Of a stretch of DNA of 20,990 nt, positions 1,438 through 19,057 are shown in pieces (the stretch's first letter is position 1; every line of letters starts with the position of its first letter). The stretch spans positions 1-20,990 of IMG/VR virus record IMGVR_UViG_3300006805_000199, one strand, 5' to 3'. The notes under the pieces are model-generated. The model had not been told where the DNA came from. It saw only the letters and a program-made list of their open reading frames with translations, and searched no databases. Origin of the DNA: a virus. A program made the translations under genes and the position numbers.

Positions 1438-2366
1438 TGATGCAAACCATGACCGAGGTTAAGAATCTCTGGTTTCCCATTGAACAGAGGCTTAAAGAGC
1501 CCGTTCCTGCCTTGCTCGAATTTCCCCGGTACTTCGAGATTGAAACAGTCAATGCCTGCAACGCCAGGTGTCCGATGTGCACCATTGACGACTGGGACCG
1601 GAGAGACGGTTTGATGAAGATGGACCTATTTGAGAAGATCGCCAATGAGATAGGGGAGCACACTCAGGAAGTCACTCGGGTGCATCTTTACCGGGATGGA
1701 GAGCCTTTACTGGACAAGACTTTGGCGACCAAGGTAGCGATGTTGAAAGGTCGCGGGGTCAAACGGGTAGGGATTTCGACCAATGTTGCGTTGCTAGACG
1801 AAGAAAGAGCCGAAGGTCTTTTAATGGCGGGGCTGGATGAGATCATTCTCTCGATAGACAGTCTCAGAGCTGGGGTCTATGAGGCGATCAGGAAGAATCT
1901 GCATTTCGACCAAGTCATGTATAACGCCCACAACTTCATCACCAAGAGAAACGCAGGTAAATACAACACCCAGGTTTGGGTGAGGATGATAAGGCAGAAG
2001 TCAAATTACGATGAATGGGAGCACTATCAAAGGTACTGGAAGAGCTGTCTTAAGGAAACCGACCGGATTGATTATCGTGATTTACATCATTGGGGTGGAC
2101 AGTTGATAGGCTTCGACCGCGAACCCAGGAGGTCGGATACAAAACCTTGTGTAGCGTTGTGGTCTTTGATGGTGATCTTTGCCAACGGAGACGTACCCAG
2201 ATGCAACGTCGATTACAACAACAAACACCCGGTAGGTAATGTTAAGAACTCCACCATCAGGGAGTTGTGGCAGGGCGAGATACAGAATACGGTGAGGCGG
2301 GATCATCTGGAAGGAATTAGGACGAGCATTTGTAATGGGTGCGATGTGTGGACGGAGAAAAGATAA
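1413..2366 (+). CDS. Radical SAM enzyme with SPASM-type C-terminus
   Basis: The start is placed at ATG 1413 because AAGGA (1402-1406) lies 6 bases upstream; ATG 1434, within the previous stop, is an alternative. The 317-aa product has the radical SAM cluster motif CNARCPMC (Cys49, 53 and 56), which binds a [4Fe-4S] cluster and cleaves S-adenosylmethionine. A DGEP motif follows at 95-98 and then alternating beta/alpha elements. The C-terminus has cysteines at 246, 264, 307 and 310, including an NGD-x-x-x-C strand and a final C-N-G-C, typical of a SPASM/twitch auxiliary cluster domain. Family members modify peptides, sugars or metabolites by radical chemistry. The neighbouring sugar reductase and methyltransferase suggest a sugar or natural-product-like substrate, but no precursor peptide is evident. 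Confidence 0.88.
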   Translation: MRSAQVPMMMQTMTEVKNLWFPIEQRLKEPVPALLEFPRYFEIETVNACNARCPMCTIDDWDRRDGLMKMDLFEKIANEIGEHTQEVTRVHLYRDGEPLLDKTLATKVAMLKGRGVKRVGISTNVALLDEERAEGLLMAGLDEIILSIDSLRAGVYEAIRKNLHFDQVMYNAHNFITKRNAGKYNTQVWVRMIRQKSNYDEWEHYQRYWKSCLKETDRIDYRDLHHWGGQLIGFDREPRRSDTKPCVALWSLMVIFANGDVPRCNVDYNNKHPVGNVKNSTIRELWQGEIQNTVRRDHLEGIRTSICNGCDVWTEKR

Positions 2367-2944
2367 AGATCACCTTCGCGAAGAAGATCACTCCTGATTT
2401 ATTCAGGCTGTGGCTCGATGAGATGGAATTTCCTCAAGACGAGCGGGAGTTCTCTAAGCTCTTGGAGGAGATCAAGGGAATCTCGTCGATACTTGAAATA
2501 GGTTCTCGGTTCGGGGTCAGCTTGACCCGATTCAGTCAAGTCATGAACCCGGGGTCAAAGGTTGTGGCAGTAGACTTACCGGGAGACGATGAGTCGATGA
2601 TATTTCTGGATAGTGAGACTTCTTTAAGGGAAAGGGCAAAGAAGATTGGGGAAAAACATCAGATGAGCTTATTCTTCGGAGACAGTCACGACCCGGAGAT
2701 GGTAAGCAAAGTCAAGGAGTTGTCACCGTTTGATTTTATTTTTATCGACGGAGATCACACTGAGAAAGGGGTGAGGTTGGACTGGGAAAACTACGGCCCG
2801 ATGGGGAGGATGATTGGCTTTCATGATATTGGTCCCTACAGCAAGTTATCGTGTAAGAATGTGTGGTCTGAGATCAAGGGTCAGTACCGGCACAAGGAGT
2901 TTTTGGACTCCGGCTGGATGGGAATAGGTATCTTGTGGCGTTGA
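2339..2944 (+). CDS. Class I SAM-dependent methyltransferase (Methyltransf_24-like)
   Basis: The product has a Rossmann-type methyltransferase core: motif I SILEIGSRFGVSL near residues 50-62, an acidic post-I strand VVAVDLPG, and FDFIFIDGDHTEKGV near 130-145 followed by an FHDIGPY strand. The IDGDH and H-D segments match class I methyltransferases that act on sugars or small molecules (cephalosporin hydroxylase/CmcI and Methyltransf_24 groups). The start is uncertain. GTG 2339 gives the longest frame and overlaps the radical SAM gene by 28 bases; GTG 2348 is also in frame, and neither has a strong ribosome binding site. The stop is overlapped by the -35 box of the next promoter. It probably works with the two genes upstream; the target is unknown. 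Confidence 0.8.
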   Translation: MRCVDGEKIKITFAKKITPDLFRLWLDEMEFPQDEREFSKLLEEIKGISSILEIGSRFGVSLTRFSQVMNPGSKVVAVDLPGDDESMIFLDSETSLRERAKKIGEKHQMSLFFGDSHDPEMVSKVKELSPFDFIFIDGDHTEKGVRLDWENYGPMGRMIGFHDIGPYSKLSCKNVWSEIKGQYRHKEFLDSGWMGIGILWR

Positions 2945-2969
2945 CAACCACAACATATAGGCGTATTAA
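2941..2969 (+). promoter_or_regulatory. Strong sigma70-type promoter before the late operon
   Basis: A perfect -35 TTGACA (2941-2946), exactly 17 bases of spacer, and TATTAA (2964-2969) predict a start near 2976. The -35 box overlaps the stop codon of the methyltransferase gene. A short palindrome, GTCA-AA-TGAC (2971-2980), straddles the expected start and could be an operator. This is the best promoter match in the window and sits just before the packaging and structural genes. Confidence 0.72.
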
Positions 2970-2975
2970 GGTCAA

Positions 2976-3059
2976 ATGACGCGACCGCTAGGTCTATTTC
3001 GTCGGCGTCCCTCCCTCGCCGGCATGAGCCCCGTTAATGCTACGGGGCTTTTTTCTTTT
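2976..3059 (+). ncRNA. Candidate ~80-nt leader/small RNA with three hairpins
   Basis: No ORF of note lies between the promoter and the terminator, so the predicted product is a short untranslated RNA. Its parts are: a small hairpin GACC-GCTA-GGTC (2983-2994); a linker TATTTC; a 7-bp hairpin GTCGGCG/CGCCGGC (3001-3007 with 3017-3023, one G-U pair) whose 9-base loop is TCCCTCCCT; and the 8-bp terminator stem. GGTC at 2970-2973 could compete for the first hairpin if transcription starts early enough. The loop is complementary to ribosome binding sites of the GGGA/GGAGG type, as in UCCC-loop regulatory RNAs. The alternative is a late-operon leader or an antitermination (put/Q-type) region. Structure was read by eye; function is inferred. 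Confidence 0.55.
3027..3059 (+). terminator. Strong intrinsic terminator
   Basis: A perfect 8-bp stem AGCCCCGT/ACGGGGCT (3027-3034 with 3042-3049) and a 7-base loop are followed directly by a T-rich tract, TTTTTTCTTTT. This is the clearest rho-independent terminator in the window. It lies about 50 bases after the expected start of the promoter at 2941 and just before the structural operon, so late transcription must either read through it or start elsewhere. Confidence 0.88.
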
Positions 3060-3088: not shown

Positions 3089-3325
3089 ATGAAGAAGCCA
3101 CGTTCAGGCGGTTACGGTCCAACCAAGCGCGAGACAGCGGGTCTGTCTCTGGAGAAGAAATCGCTGTCTCAGAAGGTTGGAAGAGCCGAAGGGAGGTCCA
3201 GTCCTTATTACACTCCTGTAGGTTCTGGTTCCCGGCCTGTAAAGTCGGTGTATCGGATTGAATCCAGTGCTCCGATGACGACTCAGAGGATTCGTCCCTC
3301 CAATCCGGTAGAAAGAAACAAGTGA
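3089..3325 (+). CDS. 78-aa basic protein, unknown function
   Basis: This is the first gene after the terminator. ATG 3089 is preceded by AAAGGTAG with suitable spacing. The product is rich in Lys, Arg, Ser, Gly and Pro and looks largely disordered. No domain, signal peptide or membrane segment is seen. It overlaps the next gene in a GTGA junction, so the two are probably made together. The position just before packaging genes suggests a phage-specific structural or DNA-associated role, but this is only context. Confidence 0.6.
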   Translation: MKKPRSGGYGPTKRETAGLSLEKKSLSQKVGRAEGRSSPYYTPVGSGSRPVKSVYRIESSAPMTTQRIRPSNPVERNK

Positions 3326-3564
3326 CTAGGGGTTGGAAGCCGGTTAAGGACTTCGATCCGAACAGTCAGGACGCTGACGAGAAGTACGATCCTGCCAGGA
3401 GACTTCAAACCAAGGACGGCGTGTACTACACGGGTAAGGGTCAACAGGGGGGTAGTTCTCAAAAGACCCCTCAAGCCCAGCGTATGGTCACAGGAAACTC
3501 CAGGGGCGGGTCTTATGTTATCGGAAGTTCGTCCCCCAAAGACAAACAGCGTATCCGTGGGTAG
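3322..3564 (+). CDS. 80-aa polar protein, unknown function
   Basis: GTG 3322 overlaps the stop of the preceding gene (GTGA). The product is polar and probably unstructured, rich in Gly, Ser, Gln, Lys and Asp, with patches such as YYTGKGQQGG and SYVIGSSSPKD. Its composition resembles that of the preceding 78-aa protein, so the two may be related or form a pair. No known domain recognised. Coding status rests on the stop/start overlap and on the absence of a good alternative frame. Confidence 0.55.
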   Translation: MTRGWKPVKDFDPNSQDADEKYDPARRLQTKDGVYYTGKGQQGGSSQKTPQAQRMVTGNSRGGSYVIGSSSPKDKQRIRG

Positions 3565-3571
3565 ATGTAGA

Positions 3572-3607
3572 TAGACGTGGTTAGACGTGGATAGTTCGTG
3601 GATAGTT
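3572..3607 (+). repeat. Short tandem repeats around a gene start
   Basis: TAGACGTGG occurs at 3572-3580 and 3582-3590 (10-base period), merging into GTGGATAGTT at 3587-3596 and 3598-3607 (11-base period). The last copy contains the GTG proposed as the start of the next small gene. Periods of 10-11 bases place the copies on one face of the helix, which fits a protein-binding site but could also be slippage. Confidence 0.5.
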
Positions 3608-3771
3608 TTGAGAAGGAAAATCAGGAATTGCGGATGATGCTTGAGGAAGTCTTGCAGGGCTGGTCTTTGGCGGCTGCAAGCCTGGAATCAGGTCAAGCCG
3701 TATGGATCTGGAAACGGATTAACGGTATCCGGGAAAGAATGAAATGGCTAGAGTACGGGAACGTACAATGA
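3598..3771 (+). CDS. 57-aa coiled-coil-like protein, unknown function
   Basis: The frame runs from GTG 3598 to TGA 3769-3771. The N-terminus has a heptad-like amphipathic helix (FEKENQELRMMLEEVL), followed by a Trp/Arg-rich segment (IWKRINGIRERMKWLEYG). ATG 3634, with AGGA 7 bases upstream at 3623-3626, is an alternative start, but it would cut off part of the helix. The stop is in the same frame as the following small-terminase-like gene, 42 bases before its ATG. A small helical protein immediately before the terminase genes could assist packaging; no homologue is recognised. Confidence 0.55.
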   Translation: MDSFEKENQELRMMLEEVLQGWSLAAASLESGQAVWIWKRINGIRERMKWLEYGNVQ

Positions 3772-3813: not shown

Positions 3814-4116
3814 ATGGCTGCTCGTTCTTCTAAGGTAATTCTGCATGAGAAATGGCGTGAGAAGATTCGCGCCAGCATGTTGATAAATAGACTTAGAAAT
3901 CACGTACTTGGTAGGCTGGAAATGAGCAATACCCAAATACGAGCAGCAGAGATTCTATTATCCAGGGTTATGCCCACCCTACAAGCTACTGATTTCACCG
4001 CATTGGACGCAGATGGGCAACCACTTGCGATATCACTCATTGCTTACCATCCCTCACAACTATCAACCCCGGCCCTACCAGCTCCCGATACTGAAGGCTC
4101 TGGACTCAGGCATTAA
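3814..4116 (+). CDS. Probable terminase small subunit
   Basis: The 100-aa product is a basic helical protein whose middle part (INRLRNHVLGRLEMSNTQIR, then AAEILLSRVMPTLQA) matches my memory of proteins encoded just before the large terminase in P22-like phages and usually called small terminase. The pattern is a DNA-binding helix pair followed by 'A-x-E-I-L-L-x-x-x-M-P'. Such subunits recognise the packaging site and feed DNA to the large subunit. The C-terminal 34 residues overlap the large-subunit gene by 104 bases in another frame. The ATG has only a weak ribosome binding site (GTGGA, close spacing), within a CCACGTGG palindrome. The call rests on position and pattern. Confidence 0.62.
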   Translation: MAARSSKVILHEKWREKIRASMLINRLRNHVLGRLEMSNTQIRAAEILLSRVMPTLQATDFTALDADGQPLAISLIAYHPSQLSTPALPAPDTEGSGLRH

Positions 4117-5347
4117 GAGAGCAGTAGCGGTTTGGCACAGGAGAAGCGGTAAGGAAAAGACGTTCATCAACTACGTTTGCAAGGCGGCGTTTCAGAGGGT
4201 AGGAACTTACTTTTACATGTTTCCTACGTATGCTCAGGCAAAAAAAGTCTTGTGGGATGGGAGAGATCGGGAGGGGTTTCCGTTCATGGGTCACTTCCCC
4301 AAAGAGATTGTCAAGACCTCCAACGAAACAGAGCTTAGAAAAGAACTAGTCAATGGCTCGGCTGTACAGCTTATCGGCACGGACAATATTGATTCTGTAC
4401 TTGGGACTAACCCTGTTGGCTGCGTATTTTCGGAATATGCCATGCAGGACCCTAAAGCCTGGGACTATATGCGCCCGATTCTCAGAGAGAATGGAGGCTG
4501 GGCTATTTTTGATTATACGCCCCGCGGGAAGAATCACGGATATGCTCTATACCAGATGGCTCGATCTAACCCTGAATGGTTTGCGGAGATTCTTACAGTA
4601 GATCAGACGCAGGCTCTCAATCCTGGGGACATAGACAAGGAACGCAAGGAGGGGATGAGCGAGGAGTTAATACAGCAGGAGTATTACTGTTCATTTGAAG
4701 GGGTGCAATTTGGAGCCTACTACGGTAAACAGCTACAGTTGGCCGAACAAGAGAAGCGAATATCCCACATCCAGTACGAGCCCGATCTCGGAGTTGAGAC
4801 TTGGTGGGATTTGGGAATCGGGGATTCAACCGCTATCTGGTTCACTCAATCCACAGGGAGAGAGATCCGAGTCATTGACTACCTCGAAGCCTCGGGAGAA
4901 GGACTCCCCCATTATGCGAAGAAGCTCCAGGAGAAGCCTTACGTTTACTCAGCGCACCACGCCCCGCATGATATTGAGGTCCGCGAGTTGGGTTCTGGGA
5001 GGTCTAGGAAGGAAATTGCGCAGTCTCTCGGGATTGTGTTTCAGGTGGTCCCGAATGTTTCGATTGAAGACGGTATCGAGGCGGCGCGGGCGATCCTTTC
5101 ACGATGTTACTTCGACCAAGAGCGGTGTCGCAGAGGGCTAGATGCCCTGGCGTCCTACCATAAAGCCTATGACGACAAGCTCAAGGACTGGAAGTCCTAC
5201 CCGCAACACGACTGGTCAAGCCACGCAGCAGACGCCTTCAGGTATTTAGCAGTGGGTCATAAGACGACGCAGGCAAAGACTCAAGAGGCTGTTGAAATCG
5301 TGTATTACAGCAAAGACGAGGGGAACCAGAATTGGATGGCCGTCTGA
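4013..5347 (+). CDS. terL: Terminase large subunit (ATPase-nuclease packaging motor)
   Basis: The 444-aa product has the two-domain plan of large terminases. The N-terminal ATPase has a Q-motif-like PRPYQ (residues 19-23), Walker A HRRSGKEKT (42-50), Walker B GCVFSEYA with Glu141, and the coupling motif DYTPRGKNHGY (167-177). The C-terminal RNase H-like nuclease has acidic residues in WWDLGIGDST (Asp266), HAPHD (Asp320) and HAADAFRYL (Asp407). It pumps genome DNA into proheads and cuts concatemers. The 104-base overlap with the preceding gene is long, but both frames look coding and no better downstream start is present; TTG 4037 is the only near alternative. Confidence 0.95.
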   Translation: MGNHLRYHSLLTIPHNYQPRPYQLPILKALDSGIKRAVAVWHRRSGKEKTFINYVCKAAFQRVGTYFYMFPTYAQAKKVLWDGRDREGFPFMGHFPKEIVKTSNETELRKELVNGSAVQLIGTDNIDSVLGTNPVGCVFSEYAMQDPKAWDYMRPILRENGGWAIFDYTPRGKNHGYALYQMARSNPEWFAEILTVDQTQALNPGDIDKERKEGMSEELIQQEYYCSFEGVQFGAYYGKQLQLAEQEKRISHIQYEPDLGVETWWDLGIGDSTAIWFTQSTGREIRVIDYLEASGEGLPHYAKKLQEKPYVYSAHHAPHDIEVRELGSGRSRKEIAQSLGIVFQVVPNVSIEDGIEAARAILSRCYFDQERCRRGLDALASYHKAYDDKLKDWKSYPQHDWSSHAADAFRYLAVGHKTTQAKTQEAVEIVYYSKDEGNQNWMAV

Positions 5348-13018: not shown

Positions 13019-13251
13019 ATCTAGAGCACGTAAGACTTAGACAAGAGGCTATCTCAAGGAAGAAAGAAAGACGCGAGAGGCAACTTGTTCTAGAGGCTCA
13101 AATAAAAGCCAGGAGAAATTCCAAATGGTATCCCCATCCTGACGGAGTAATGTCCGATGGAATGGGAAGATATTTCTACAATGGGGAAGAAATTCACCCC
13201 GTGGGGAAGTTGATCGGTCATTCGATAGAAGGTTATCTATGCCAAGAGTAA
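13015..13251 (+). CDS. 78-aa protein, unknown function
   Basis: ATG 13015 overlaps the groES-like stop (ATGA). The N-terminal half is a charged helix (RLRQEAISRKKERRERQLVL). The C-terminal half has a compact WYPHPDGVMSDGMGRYFYNG segment that looks like a small beta hairpin. No domain recognised. It overlaps the glycosyltransferase start by 13 bases, so it is co-translated with it. It could be an accessory to either neighbour. Confidence 0.6.
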   Translation: MNLEHVRLRQEAISRKKERRERQLVLEAQIKARRNSKWYPHPDGVMSDGMGRYFYNGEEIHPVGKLIGHSIEGYLCQE

Positions 13252-15467
13252 GCGTATGCAGTTCGGTTTTGAATCAATCCGCATGGTTGAGGGATATGAT
13301 CGCCTCAGTCATAGCCCAGACCTACAAGGACTGGGAACTGATTCTTGTCGATGACGGGTCTACCGAGGACATTCTGGGCATTGTCGATGAATTCAAAGAC
13401 CCAAGGATACAGCTCACACGTTTTCCTGAGAATCTTGGCATTCCCCACGGCATAAACTGGGCCTTTCAGCACTGTTCGGGGGAGTACGTACAGCCTTTGG
13501 CGGCGGATGAAATAATCACCCCGACCAAGCTTGAAGATCAGGTCAAGTATCTCGATGAGAACAAGACCATAGACTGCATCTGGGGACTGCCTCAGTTCTG
13601 CGGTTCCATAGAACTCAGAGAGACCGGGTTGAGACCTTCCTGGGAGCAGTACCTCATGAAGGCTCATAACAGGAGCAGGGAGTCGTGGTTGAAGACCTTG
13701 CTTTTGCTAGAGAACGTCCCGCTGGGGTCGTGTTCCGCGCTGTGGAGAAGGTCGGTCTTTGATTCCATCAGGTATTTCGATCCGACTCTAACTTCGTTTG
13801 TCGATCACGAATGGTTCTGCCGTTTCTTCGAGAAACATGAAGGCAGAGTCTTACCCTATAGATGGGCTCTTTGCCGTCCCAATCCCAACTCCGTACAGTC
13901 CAAGTCACCGGAGAAGAATATAGAGGAATTGAAGTACGTAAGAGAAAAACACAAGCTCATCCTGCCTCCTGTAACTGGGAAGGTCACGGTTGGAATTCCC
14001 TGCTTCAACATGGCGAATTATGTTCCTGATGCTGTGAACAGTATTTTGAAGCAGACCCACCAAGACTTCGAGGTCATAGTCCTAGACGATGCCTCTACAG
14101 ACAATATTGCAGAGGTCATGGCAGGATTCAATGACGAGAGAATCAAGTTCATGGCCTTTGATGAGAATCGGGGGCAGATGGAAGCTCAGAACCAGATGCT
14201 GGCCAGGGCCGAAGGGGAGTTCTTCGTTCCTCTGTCCGCCGATGATGTATTAGCCCCTACTCATCTTGAGAGGTGTCTAGCGGAATTCTCAAAAGACCCG
14301 TTCCTAGAGTTTGTCTCTACCCAGACGGATTTTATAGACGAGAAGGGCGAGCCGTTCAAGGACGTTAAACACCCGTTCTTCCAGATAGAGAAAGCGGTCA
14401 ATCATACTCAGGATCAATGGAAGCAGAGGCTTTATTACGGGAACGTCTATTTCGGCGTGGGGATGTACCGCACCTACGCCGCCAGGGAAGTCGGGGGGTG
14501 GGACAAGAAGCACGGGGTTATCTCAGATTACGAAATCTACCTCAGGCTTTTACAGAGAGAGAACATTCACGTAATAGAGGAAGCCTTGACGCATACCCGG
14601 ATTACCGGGAAGAATCAAAGTCTGATAAGCAAGGAAGAATCTCTTAAGCTTAAGCAGAGGTACTACGATGCCAAGTCTCCATACTACCCGCCTAGAATTA
14701 AGGTCGTCATTGCGACACCGTTCTATGAATTGAAGGGTTTCAGCCCGTATATTTCAAGCATGGTCCTGACGACTAAGATGCTTCATCAGATGGGAATCGA
14801 GTTCGAATTCTGGGAGCTGTCTGGAGATTCCTACGTACATCGTGCGAGGAATACTCTATGCGCCAAGTTCCTTGAAGATCCTGCGGCTACAGATTTGTTC
14901 TTCATAGACTCAGACATGCAGTGGAACCCCGAAGCCCTTATAAACATGGTTCTCCTACAGGAAGAAGTGGTCGGCGCTTCGTATCCGATCAAGAACAACT
15001 ATGCAGGCTGGACGAGCATTCCTTATTTTGAAGTAGGAGAGGACAAGAAGGGTCATCCGTTCGGTAGGGTTTTGCCGGACGGTACGGCTCTTTTAAAAGC
15101 CCACGTAGTAGCAGGAGGGTTTTTGAGAATCAAGAGAAAGGCTCTTGAGAAATTCAAAGACTACTATCCCGATCTTTGGTACAACGAGCCCTCGGCTGAT
15201 CCTTCAGCTCCCGAAAGGAAGTACCACGCCTACTTTATGAGTCAGATAGAAGACCATCTTCTTTACGGAGAGGACATGTGGTTCTCCAAGAAAATGCGCG
15301 AGATGAACGCCGAGATGTGCATCTACCCCAACGTCAACATGGGCCACTTCGGTGTCAAGGGCTGGTCGGGTAACTATCATACTTTCTTGTCAGGAGCTAA
15401 AGACGAATTGAGGGAAGACCCTAGCTTCATACAGAATATCAGCGGAAAGTCGGGAAAGGCTACCTAA
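13239..15467 (+). CDS. Triple-domain glycosyltransferase (two GT2 units plus a third GT-A-like unit)
   Basis: ATG 13239 has AGAAGG about 7 bases upstream. The 742-aa product holds three nucleotide-sugar transferase-like domains. Domain 1 (about 3-235) is GT2: VSVCSSVLNQSAWL, LILVDDGSTED, an AADE acidic motif at 88-91 and VDHEW at 188-192. Domain 2 (about 248-480) is also GT2: VTVGIPCFNMANYV, VIVLDDASTDN, SADD at 333-336 and ISDYEIYLRL. Domain 3 (about 486-720) differs: IKVVIATPFYEL, an RARNTL segment, FIDSDMQW with a DSD metal motif at 557-559, and YGEDMWF at 677-682. Such proteins transfer sugars to lipids, glycans or proteins. No membrane segment is seen. Lying inside the morphogenesis operon, it may decorate the virion; acting on host surface glycans is the alternative. 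Confidence 0.88.
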   Translation: MPRVSVCSSVLNQSAWLRDMIASVIAQTYKDWELILVDDGSTEDILGIVDEFKDPRIQLTRFPENLGIPHGINWAFQHCSGEYVQPLAADEIITPTKLEDQVKYLDENKTIDCIWGLPQFCGSIELRETGLRPSWEQYLMKAHNRSRESWLKTLLLLENVPLGSCSALWRRSVFDSIRYFDPTLTSFVDHEWFCRFFEKHEGRVLPYRWALCRPNPNSVQSKSPEKNIEELKYVREKHKLILPPVTGKVTVGIPCFNMANYVPDAVNSILKQTHQDFEVIVLDDASTDNIAEVMAGFNDERIKFMAFDENRGQMEAQNQMLARAEGEFFVPLSADDVLAPTHLERCLAEFSKDPFLEFVSTQTDFIDEKGEPFKDVKHPFFQIEKAVNHTQDQWKQRLYYGNVYFGVGMYRTYAAREVGGWDKKHGVISDYEIYLRLLQRENIHVIEEALTHTRITGKNQSLISKEESLKLKQRYYDAKSPYYPPRIKVVIATPFYELKGFSPYISSMVLTTKMLHQMGIEFEFWELSGDSYVHRARNTLCAKFLEDPAATDLFFIDSDMQWNPEALINMVLLQEEVVGASYPIKNNYAGWTSIPYFEVGEDKKGHPFGRVLPDGTALLKAHVVAGGFLRIKRKALEKFKDYYPDLWYNEPSADPSAPERKYHAYFMSQIEDHLLYGEDMWFSKKMREMNAEMCIYPNVNMGHFGVKGWSGNYHTFLSGAKDELREDPSFIQNISGKSGKAT

Positions 15468-17916: not shown

Positions 17917-18158
17917 GCTTTCAAATGGGCATACCCGTAGGAGACTTCATGGTCACACGGCTTTTACTACAGGCCGGAGAGGCTCTACCCATACCCAAAA
18001 ACGAGGAGGTCTATCCCCTGATAGTCGGTTTGGGAAAGGTGAAGGTCGGAAATCAGATGGCTGTTCAGGGAATGACCTTACCTATAGATAAAGACTGCGA
18101 GGTCGAGGCTATGGAAAATTCTGTTTTATACACGGTGGAATATGTTGCTCAATCCTAA
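17913..18158 (+). CDS. 81-aa possible cupin-like protein
   Basis: ATG 17913 overlaps the previous stop (ATGA). The product is nearly all short beta strands separated by G/N turns (MVTRLLLQAGEALPIP, YPLIVGLGKVKVGN, CEVEAMENSVLYTVEYV). This rhythm resembles a single double-stranded beta-helix (cupin) but without the usual metal-binding histidines. The next gene encodes a clear cupin and overlaps it by 17 bases, so the two may form a heteromer. The cupin idea is low confidence. Confidence 0.55.
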   Translation: MSFQMGIPVGDFMVTRLLLQAGEALPIPKNEEVYPLIVGLGKVKVGNQMAVQGMTLPIDKDCEVEAMENSVLYTVEYVAQS

Positions 18159-18498
18159 CGGGGTTCCAATTTCAAAGGTTCAATTCAACCCCCCGCAAAC
18201 GGTGGAGTTCAAGGGCGGGATTTATTTCCGCACCTTGATTTTGAATGGCGGGGATATCGGAGGACAGCACGTTCATCAATTCGACCATGCGACGATGATA
18301 GTTACAGGAAGCGCTAGGCTTTGGATCGGATCTGAAATCGAGGGAGACTACAAAGCCGGAGATATAGCAGAGGTCAAGGCCGGAAAGATTCACGTCTTTG
18401 AGGCTTTGGAGGACAATACAAGGCTGACTTGTATCTGGCCTGAATCCATAGGTGAGAAACTCGATGAAGAATTTCCAGCTACTCGCTCGGGGGGTTGA
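18142..18498 (+). CDS. Cupin-domain protein
   Basis: ATG 18142 has GGTGGA about 3-8 bases upstream. The 118-aa product shows both cupin motifs. Motif 1 is GQHVHQFDHATMIVTGSARL, with His43, His45 and His49 as likely metal ligands; the usual Glu is replaced by His/Asp. Motif 2 is AGDIAEVKAGKIHVFEAL, with His84. Single-domain cupins bind a metal and act on small molecules or sugars, or serve as binding proteins. It sits directly before a 2-oxoglutarate oxygenase-like gene, which it overlaps by 35 bases, suggesting linked function. In a phage tail region it could also be structural. Confidence 0.75.
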   Translation: MLLNPNGVPISKVQFNPPQTVEFKGGIYFRTLILNGGDIGGQHVHQFDHATMIVTGSARLWIGSEIEGDYKAGDIAEVKAGKIHVFEALEDNTRLTCIWPESIGEKLDEEFPATRSGG

Positions 18499-19057
18499 TG
18501 TGACCCCGCTCCTCCTGGAGCTGAACCGTCAGCCTCATTTATGGGACAGAAATAAAGCAAGGCTCTACGAAACCTCTCCCCACCGGGAGACGCACGATAT
18601 ATGGATAAGATACAACGATGAAACCGAATTCAAAAAGAACGGAGACTATTCCAGGTTCAATGATGCCCATGAGTCTGTGTGGTATCCGGCTTTTTACGCT
18701 CTACCCTCTCTGAGGAGGCTCATATTTCCTCTGATGTCTAGTGTTGAAGGAGAAAGGCTCGGAGGGGTTTTGATCTACAATCTCCCCAGAGGAAAGCAAA
18801 TCTATCCTCATATTGATACGGGTTGGCATGTGGAGTATTTTGAGAAGTTCAATATCTGTCTTCAGTCTGAAAAGACAAAGTTCTGTTATGCAGACGAGGA
18901 AATGGTAGCCAAGCCCGGAGACGTTCACAGATTCAGAAACGACATAGAGCACTGGGTAGTTAACGAAGGGAACGAGGATCACCTCATGCTGACGGTATGT
19001 ATTCACGTCCATGATTACGAGAAGAGGTACGTATGCCATTCGCAATTGCAGCAGTAG
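18464..19057 (+). CDS. Aspartyl/asparaginyl beta-hydroxylase-like 2-oxoglutarate/Fe(II) oxygenase
   Basis: ATG 18464 is preferred because AGGTGAG ends about 8 bases upstream; GTG 18452 is also in frame and gives 201 aa. In the 197-aa product the HxD pair is His116/Asp118 (IYPHIDTGWH), and the distal histidine is probably His163 in DIEHWVVN, giving the iron-binding facial triad of the family. A strand PRGKQIYPHID, an FNICLQ strand and a KPGDVHRF loop match this hydroxylase group as I recall it. Relatives hydroxylate Asp/Asn in proteins; phage-encoded copies near tail genes are known, but their substrates are not established here. It overlaps the preceding cupin by 35 bases and the ejection protein by 25. 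Confidence 0.82.
   Translation: MKNFQLLARGVDVTPLLLELNRQPHLWDRNKARLYETSPHRETHDIWIRYNDETEFKKNGDYSRFNDAHESVWYPAFYALPSLRRLIFPLMSSVEGERLGGVLIYNLPRGKQIYPHIDTGWHVEYFEKFNICLQSEKTKFCYADEEMVAKPGDVHRFRNDIEHWVVNEGNEDHLMLTVCIHVHDYEKRYVCHSQLQQ

Follow-up and report, generated by a model that had tools for sequence, protein, structure and literature searches.

The 6S late leader RNA of lambda is a short RNA derived from the terminated transcript of the late promoter. A comparable origin is described for StxS, which in Stx phages is encoded in the interval from PR' to tR' and acts in trans on mRNAs (PMC7873438). Among bacterial small RNAs, the anti-Shine-Dalgarno (anti-SD) loops of the NmsR RNAs repress mRNAs by means of SD pairing (PMC5362039), the members of the Rfam family RF02278 are 'double-hairpin' RNAs with CU-rich stretches that were named for their toxicity in E. 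coli (PMC5688073, PMC4603805), and the alpha-r14 RNAs of Rhizobiales combine conserved CCUCCUCCC loops with variable stems (PMC3927594, PMC10746234). The open-access literature yielded no phage-encoded anti-SD small RNA of such kind, which is weak evidence of novelty. The locus considered here lies in a stretch of viral DNA of 20,990 bases (IMG/VR record IMGVR_UViG_3300006805_000199; hereafter the window), in which a promoter, a short leader and an intrinsic terminator precede the late operon (Table 1). Comparative analysis of this cassette suggests, with a probability of roughly 0.6, that it is a phage small RNA gene situated at the late promoter, whose product would carry an NmsR-like anti-SD loop and most likely act in trans, with the late operon being reached via read-through.

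Table 1. Features of the cassette and its flanking genes in the window
Feature	Coordinates	Strand	Remarks
Methyltransferase-like ORF ending in the -35 box	2339..2944	+	Methyltransf_24, E 2.6e-10
Late promoter	2941..2969	+	-35 TTGACA 2941-2946, 17-nt spacer, -10 TATTAA 2964-2969; from sequence
Proposed small RNA/leader, ~80 nt	2974..3058	+	predicted start to end of U-rich tract; ends predicted
SL1, small 4-bp hairpin	2983..2994	+	window fold; a different hairpin or none in other carriers
SL2, 7-bp hairpin with conserved CUCC/CCUCC-type loop UCCCUCCCU at 3008-3016, proposed anti-SD seed	3001..3023	+	
Intrinsic terminator, stem 3026-3050 then TTTTTTCTTTT	3026..3058	+	terminator scan of the window
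First late gene, 78 aa, GSGSRP motif, SD GAAAGG without GGAG	3089..3325	+	conserved small protein family
Large terminase ORF, downstream late operon	4013..5347	+	phrog_2, E 6.7e-28

The promoter proposed in the initial annotation (TTGACA-N17-TATTAA, with a start near 2976) is indeed there, with both boxes and the 17-nt spacer in place and transcription predicted to begin at about 2974-2976. Its -35 box shares bases with the stop codon of the methyltransferase-like ORF lying upstream, and its -10 hexamer matches TATAAT in four of six positions. The final T of this hexamer is usually conserved; it is absent from the window promoter, which is therefore not listed by a generic promoter scan. A TTGACA-type promoter occurs at the equivalent spot in most of the nearer relatives, with or without the leader, and the window version would be of the sigma70 type, for use by the host RNA polymerase. 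The packaging and structural genes that had been assigned to the region downstream are likewise borne out, with terminase, portal and head genes lying 3' of the cassette. The product of the first late gene recovered no match in PHROG and Pfam searches; small proteins with the GSGSRP motif head the late operon in many phages. Just upstream of the promoter, the region 976-2944 holds apparent cargo genes, namely a weak RmlD-like match, a radical SAM/SPASM protein and the methyltransferase, which are variable among carriers of the cassette. Further downstream, the structural operon includes an ORF with two glycosyltransferase family 2 domains (13239-15467), and two neighbouring cupin-like ORFs, the second below the Pfam cut-off, are found in the late operon at 18142-19057.

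The RNA spanning 2976-3057 is predicted to fold into three hairpins, SL1, SL2 and the terminator (-34.4 kcal/mol, z = -3.67), with one of 200 shuffles being equally stable. The terminator stem comprises nine pairs, six of them G-C, and stands at the top of the terminator list of the window, although the 16 terminator-like sites in the window represent no excess over shuffles (18.4 +/- 5.2). A CU-rich loop of the SL2 kind arises in 1.4-4% of shuffles of each leader, so any single variant is unremarkable, and the evidence from the window sequence on its own is only moderate. What sets the cassette above chance is its conservation: TTGACA, a hairpin with a CUCC loop and a terminator are found at the orthologous site in all four variants recovered, and the combination is rare under a strict matcher (see below). 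Thus, the strong intrinsic terminator reported after the short leader is retained across the variants, and the promoter-leader-terminator arrangement first noticed from the window is confirmed, but its key element, the loop at 3008-3016, had been overlooked. A leader peptide was also considered and was dropped, as the ATG 5' of the terminator is missing from some variants.

Relatives were gathered from viral contigs with the terminase, the portal and the first gene as queries; used alone, the first-gene protein recovered only one near-identical record. The carriers of the cassette fall into four variants, i.e. the window with L082, L002 with L087, L004, and a group comprising L007, L008, L084-L086 and L095, and in all of these the cassette sits directly ahead of the first late gene and 3' of the late promoter, with SL2 and its CUCC loop followed by the intrinsic terminator. 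The four carriers group together as a single clade in the portal tree (support 100/98); the terminase tree places L084 elsewhere, indicating recombination. Seven relatives (L003, L005, L090, L091, L092, L094 and L098) have the promoter immediately before the first late gene without any cassette, in the form TTGAAA in L003 and TTGACG in L091, and most relatives outside the carrier clade keep the promoter with neither leader nor terminator, as judged by the matcher that finds the terminator in all four variants. Since the promoters of L002 and L090 are identical in 27 of 31 bases, the cassette looks to have been inserted or deleted 3' of a homologous promoter, and it appears to constitute an optional module at that site. 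The position of the terminator directly 3' of an ORF might alternatively imply that it is the ordinary terminator of the upstream gene or genes, such terminators being common after operons, next to a sequence that resembles a promoter by chance. This explanation we regard as very improbable, given that the genes upstream vary among carriers while the cassette is kept, that every carrier has a promoter separating the upstream gene from the terminator, and that it leaves the conservation of the loop and the covariation of its stem unaccounted for.

Searches beyond these contigs found few further relatives. Among the cultured phages searched none possessed the leader, with weak scattered matches only, and none possessed the first gene; a portal search for prophage relatives found none, and a terminase search found four distant ones of mixed taxa. 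A separate set of relatives (L100, L102, L103, L106 and L107) carries, at the same late-promoter spot, another leader that has a terminator of its own. This alternative leader (AGCAC...GTGCTTTTTTTT) is conserved between L100 (approximately 3450-3615) and L103 (1-174), and an Rfam search with the L100 version gave no match.

The SL2 loops of the four variants, UCCCUCCCU, CUCCUCCUC, UCCCUCCC and UUCCUCCC, are all of the CUCC/CCUCC type while their stems differ. Comparison with related phages for covarying stems had been proposed as a check, and it is SL2 that appears to pass it: in a sequence-based alignment of the four variants, four of the five aligned pairs are changed on both sides in a compensatory manner and pairing holds in 95% of cells, whereas the terminator helix shows no double changes on the same alignment, which fits the terminator poorly. 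Taken jointly, the SL2 and terminator helices pair in 89.7% of cells, a figure that falls to 20-46% on sliding the partners; the covariation score of the four-variant alignment is 0.55 compared to 0.26 +/- 0.08 in shuffles. Coming from four sequences, this support for covariation is good but not conclusive. The strict motif matcher, which was devised with the first variants already known, was run on both strands of 294 loci (2.9 Mb, overlapping loci counted) and returned five distinct matches, namely the four variants and one in the unrelated phage L192. Among 20 records, a covariance model of the four variants matched these variants alone, with nothing better than E 1.6 elsewhere. The predicted energies of duplexes between the loop and SD sequences range from -6.2 to -13.4 kcal/mol.

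Permissive Rfam scans with the short leader stretch of each variant placed small RNA families of the anti-SD type at or near the top, all of them below threshold. RF02278 (Betaproteobacteria_toxic_sRNA) scored 21.7 bits for the window, 21.5 for L002 and 22.9 for L007 against a gathering threshold of 50, and was unlisted for L004; RF02837 (anti-hemB) scored 26.1, 18.4, 18.2 and 14.6 bits for the window, L002, L004 and L007, respectively, against 49.5; and RF02877 (NmsRb) was recovered with L002 only, at 24.1 bits against 52. None of these families was listed in the Rfam search with the whole locus. The leader thus looks like the anti-SD-type small RNAs, while missing the thresholds for membership in their families. 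It resembles NmsRA and NmsRB of Neisseria in having three stem-loops, with a UC-rich anti-SD loop in SL2 and the terminator as SL3, but these are bacterial chromosomal genes with an extra anti-SD stretch between SL1 and SL2 (PMC5362039), which the phage leader lacks. With RF02278 and RF02837 it shares two hairpins, the first bearing a CU-rich loop and the second being the terminator directly after it, in an RNA of about 60-80 nt; the latter, however, are bacterial genes with their own promoters, whereas the phage cassette precedes a late operon. As in the alpha-r14 or 'cuckoo' RNAs, the anti-SD loop is conserved while the stems vary, but those RNAs have three or four CCUCCUCCC hairpins, with at least three being required for assignment to them, and the phage leader has a single such loop with shorter or broken motifs.

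These comparisons also bear on the earlier suggestion that the leader is a put-like cis-acting antitermination RNA, whose hairpins would attach to the polymerase transcribing them and enable it to run through terminators. In favor of this idea, the long operon begins with a structured RNA, and polymerase meets a terminator there. Yet what is conserved is a loop of pyrimidines, as is typical of small RNA seeds, in a hairpin directly 5' of the terminator, the sub-threshold Rfam matches of the variants are nearly all bacterial small RNAs, and no put-named family was among the listed Rfam matches of the four variants. The idea is accordingly unsupported and deserves very little credence. The stand-alone small RNA, which the initial annotation had offered last, emerges as the best-supported option, with a loop that appears to be kept over compensating stems and with its mainly small-RNA matches in Rfam.

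The other reading offered at the outset, a switch of the lambda pR'/tR' kind, calls for closer consideration. Here the terminator would keep the late operon silent for as long as the polymerase at the late promoter has not been modified by a phage antiterminator, and the RNA would be a by-product. The geometry of promoter, short leader and terminator ahead of late genes is correctly described and is conserved in a clade. In L002, L004 and L007 only a few tens of bases separate the terminator from the ATG, leaving no room for a second promoter, so that the late genes would need read-through of the terminator. Moreover, in G008, a longer record from a relative, the leader is preceded by O-like, NinB and NinG genes; this layout is lambdoid and lends plausibility to an arrangement like pR'/tR'. 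In the L100 lineage, the equivalent place is occupied by a different leader that also ends in a terminator, which could mean that the terminator rather than the loop is what matters. Against this, most relatives have the promoter without a terminator, a conserved loop with a covarying stem is not explained by a switch, and the Q-family Pfam domains PF06530 and PF03589 (Antiterm/AntitermQ) gave no match in the seven records bearing the small RNA, all of which are partial. Q proteins are diverse, and antitermination by a factor other than the known Q families is possible. On balance, a switch with the RNA as a mere by-product seems unlikely.

Under the favored small RNA interpretation, the host polymerase would start near 2976 and mostly stop at 3050-3058, giving a structured RNA of about 80 nt. 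The SL2 loop would then most likely pair in trans with ribosome-binding sites of the GGAG(G) type in host and perhaps early phage mRNAs and lower the translation of the targeted messages, while the late operon would be reached by read-through of a leader terminator that either leaks or is overcome with the help of an antiterminator that escaped detection. A more specific version, in which the late promoter floods the cell with an anti-SD RNA and messages of the host and of the early phage genes that are led by GGAGG are thereby repressed just as the late genes start, is put forward tentatively. A genome-wide comparison of carriers, made with a crude gene caller, found no difference in avoidance of GGAG in SD sequences, and the major head gene of the window keeps AGGAG in its SD; a broad immunity of phage mRNAs is therefore unsupported. 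No clear target emerged when the loop was matched against translation starts of the phage itself. At the first late gene, the SD is without GGAG in the four carriers as well as in L100 and L103, and contains GGAG in eight leaderless relatives (L003, L005, L013, L090, L091, L092, L094 and L098), a post hoc comparison among related phages to which no probability is attached.

This last pattern might be read as avoidance of a pairing partner, and hence as a sign that the leader is a cis-acting riboregulator, whose CUCC loop would pair in read-through transcripts with downstream ribosome-binding sites and so set the translation of the late operon. The very absence of GGAG makes the nearest site a poor partner, however, the operon showed no conserved pairing, and the lack of GGAG extends to L100 and L103 with their different leader. 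We consider regulation in cis to be improbable.

If the late promoter does flood the cell with such an RNA, this would represent a small-RNA route to the takeover of host translation that is coupled to the late switch. StxS provides the precedent that a terminated leader from a phage late promoter can regulate and is not merely a by-product, and it resembles the present RNA in being a short RNA formed by termination at a late promoter ahead of phage late genes; it differs in targeting stx1B and rpoS, in being bound by Hfq and processed by RNase E, and in that no conserved CUCC-loop hairpin is described in the passages considered (PMC7873438). The present leader would thus be a second case, unrelated to StxS, with comparative support for a defined seed loop. 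Its clean presence or absence between relatives sharing one promoter supports the module view, and the case makes the question of phage anti-SD RNAs acting against host translation directly testable.

Comparable arrangements may exist elsewhere. The L192 match, on the minus strand of an unrelated phage contig (3657-3769), consists of a TTGACA resembling a promoter element, TTTCCTCCTCC and a strong terminator, behind which comes another promoter-like sequence, and is a candidate for another small RNA gene. A looser pattern of promoter, CYCCYCC and T6 recovered 12 other phage loci, most of which do not have the structure. With a pattern of CTCCTCC followed by GGGCTTTTTT, nine hairpins of at least six pairs around the motif were seen among the matches listed, a mild enrichment over shuffles (3.2 +/- 1.7). 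Further phage contigs (L320, L366, L346, L356 and L362) have CTCCTCC in a hairpin loop just 5' of a terminator, the loci in L320 and L366 being similar to each other.
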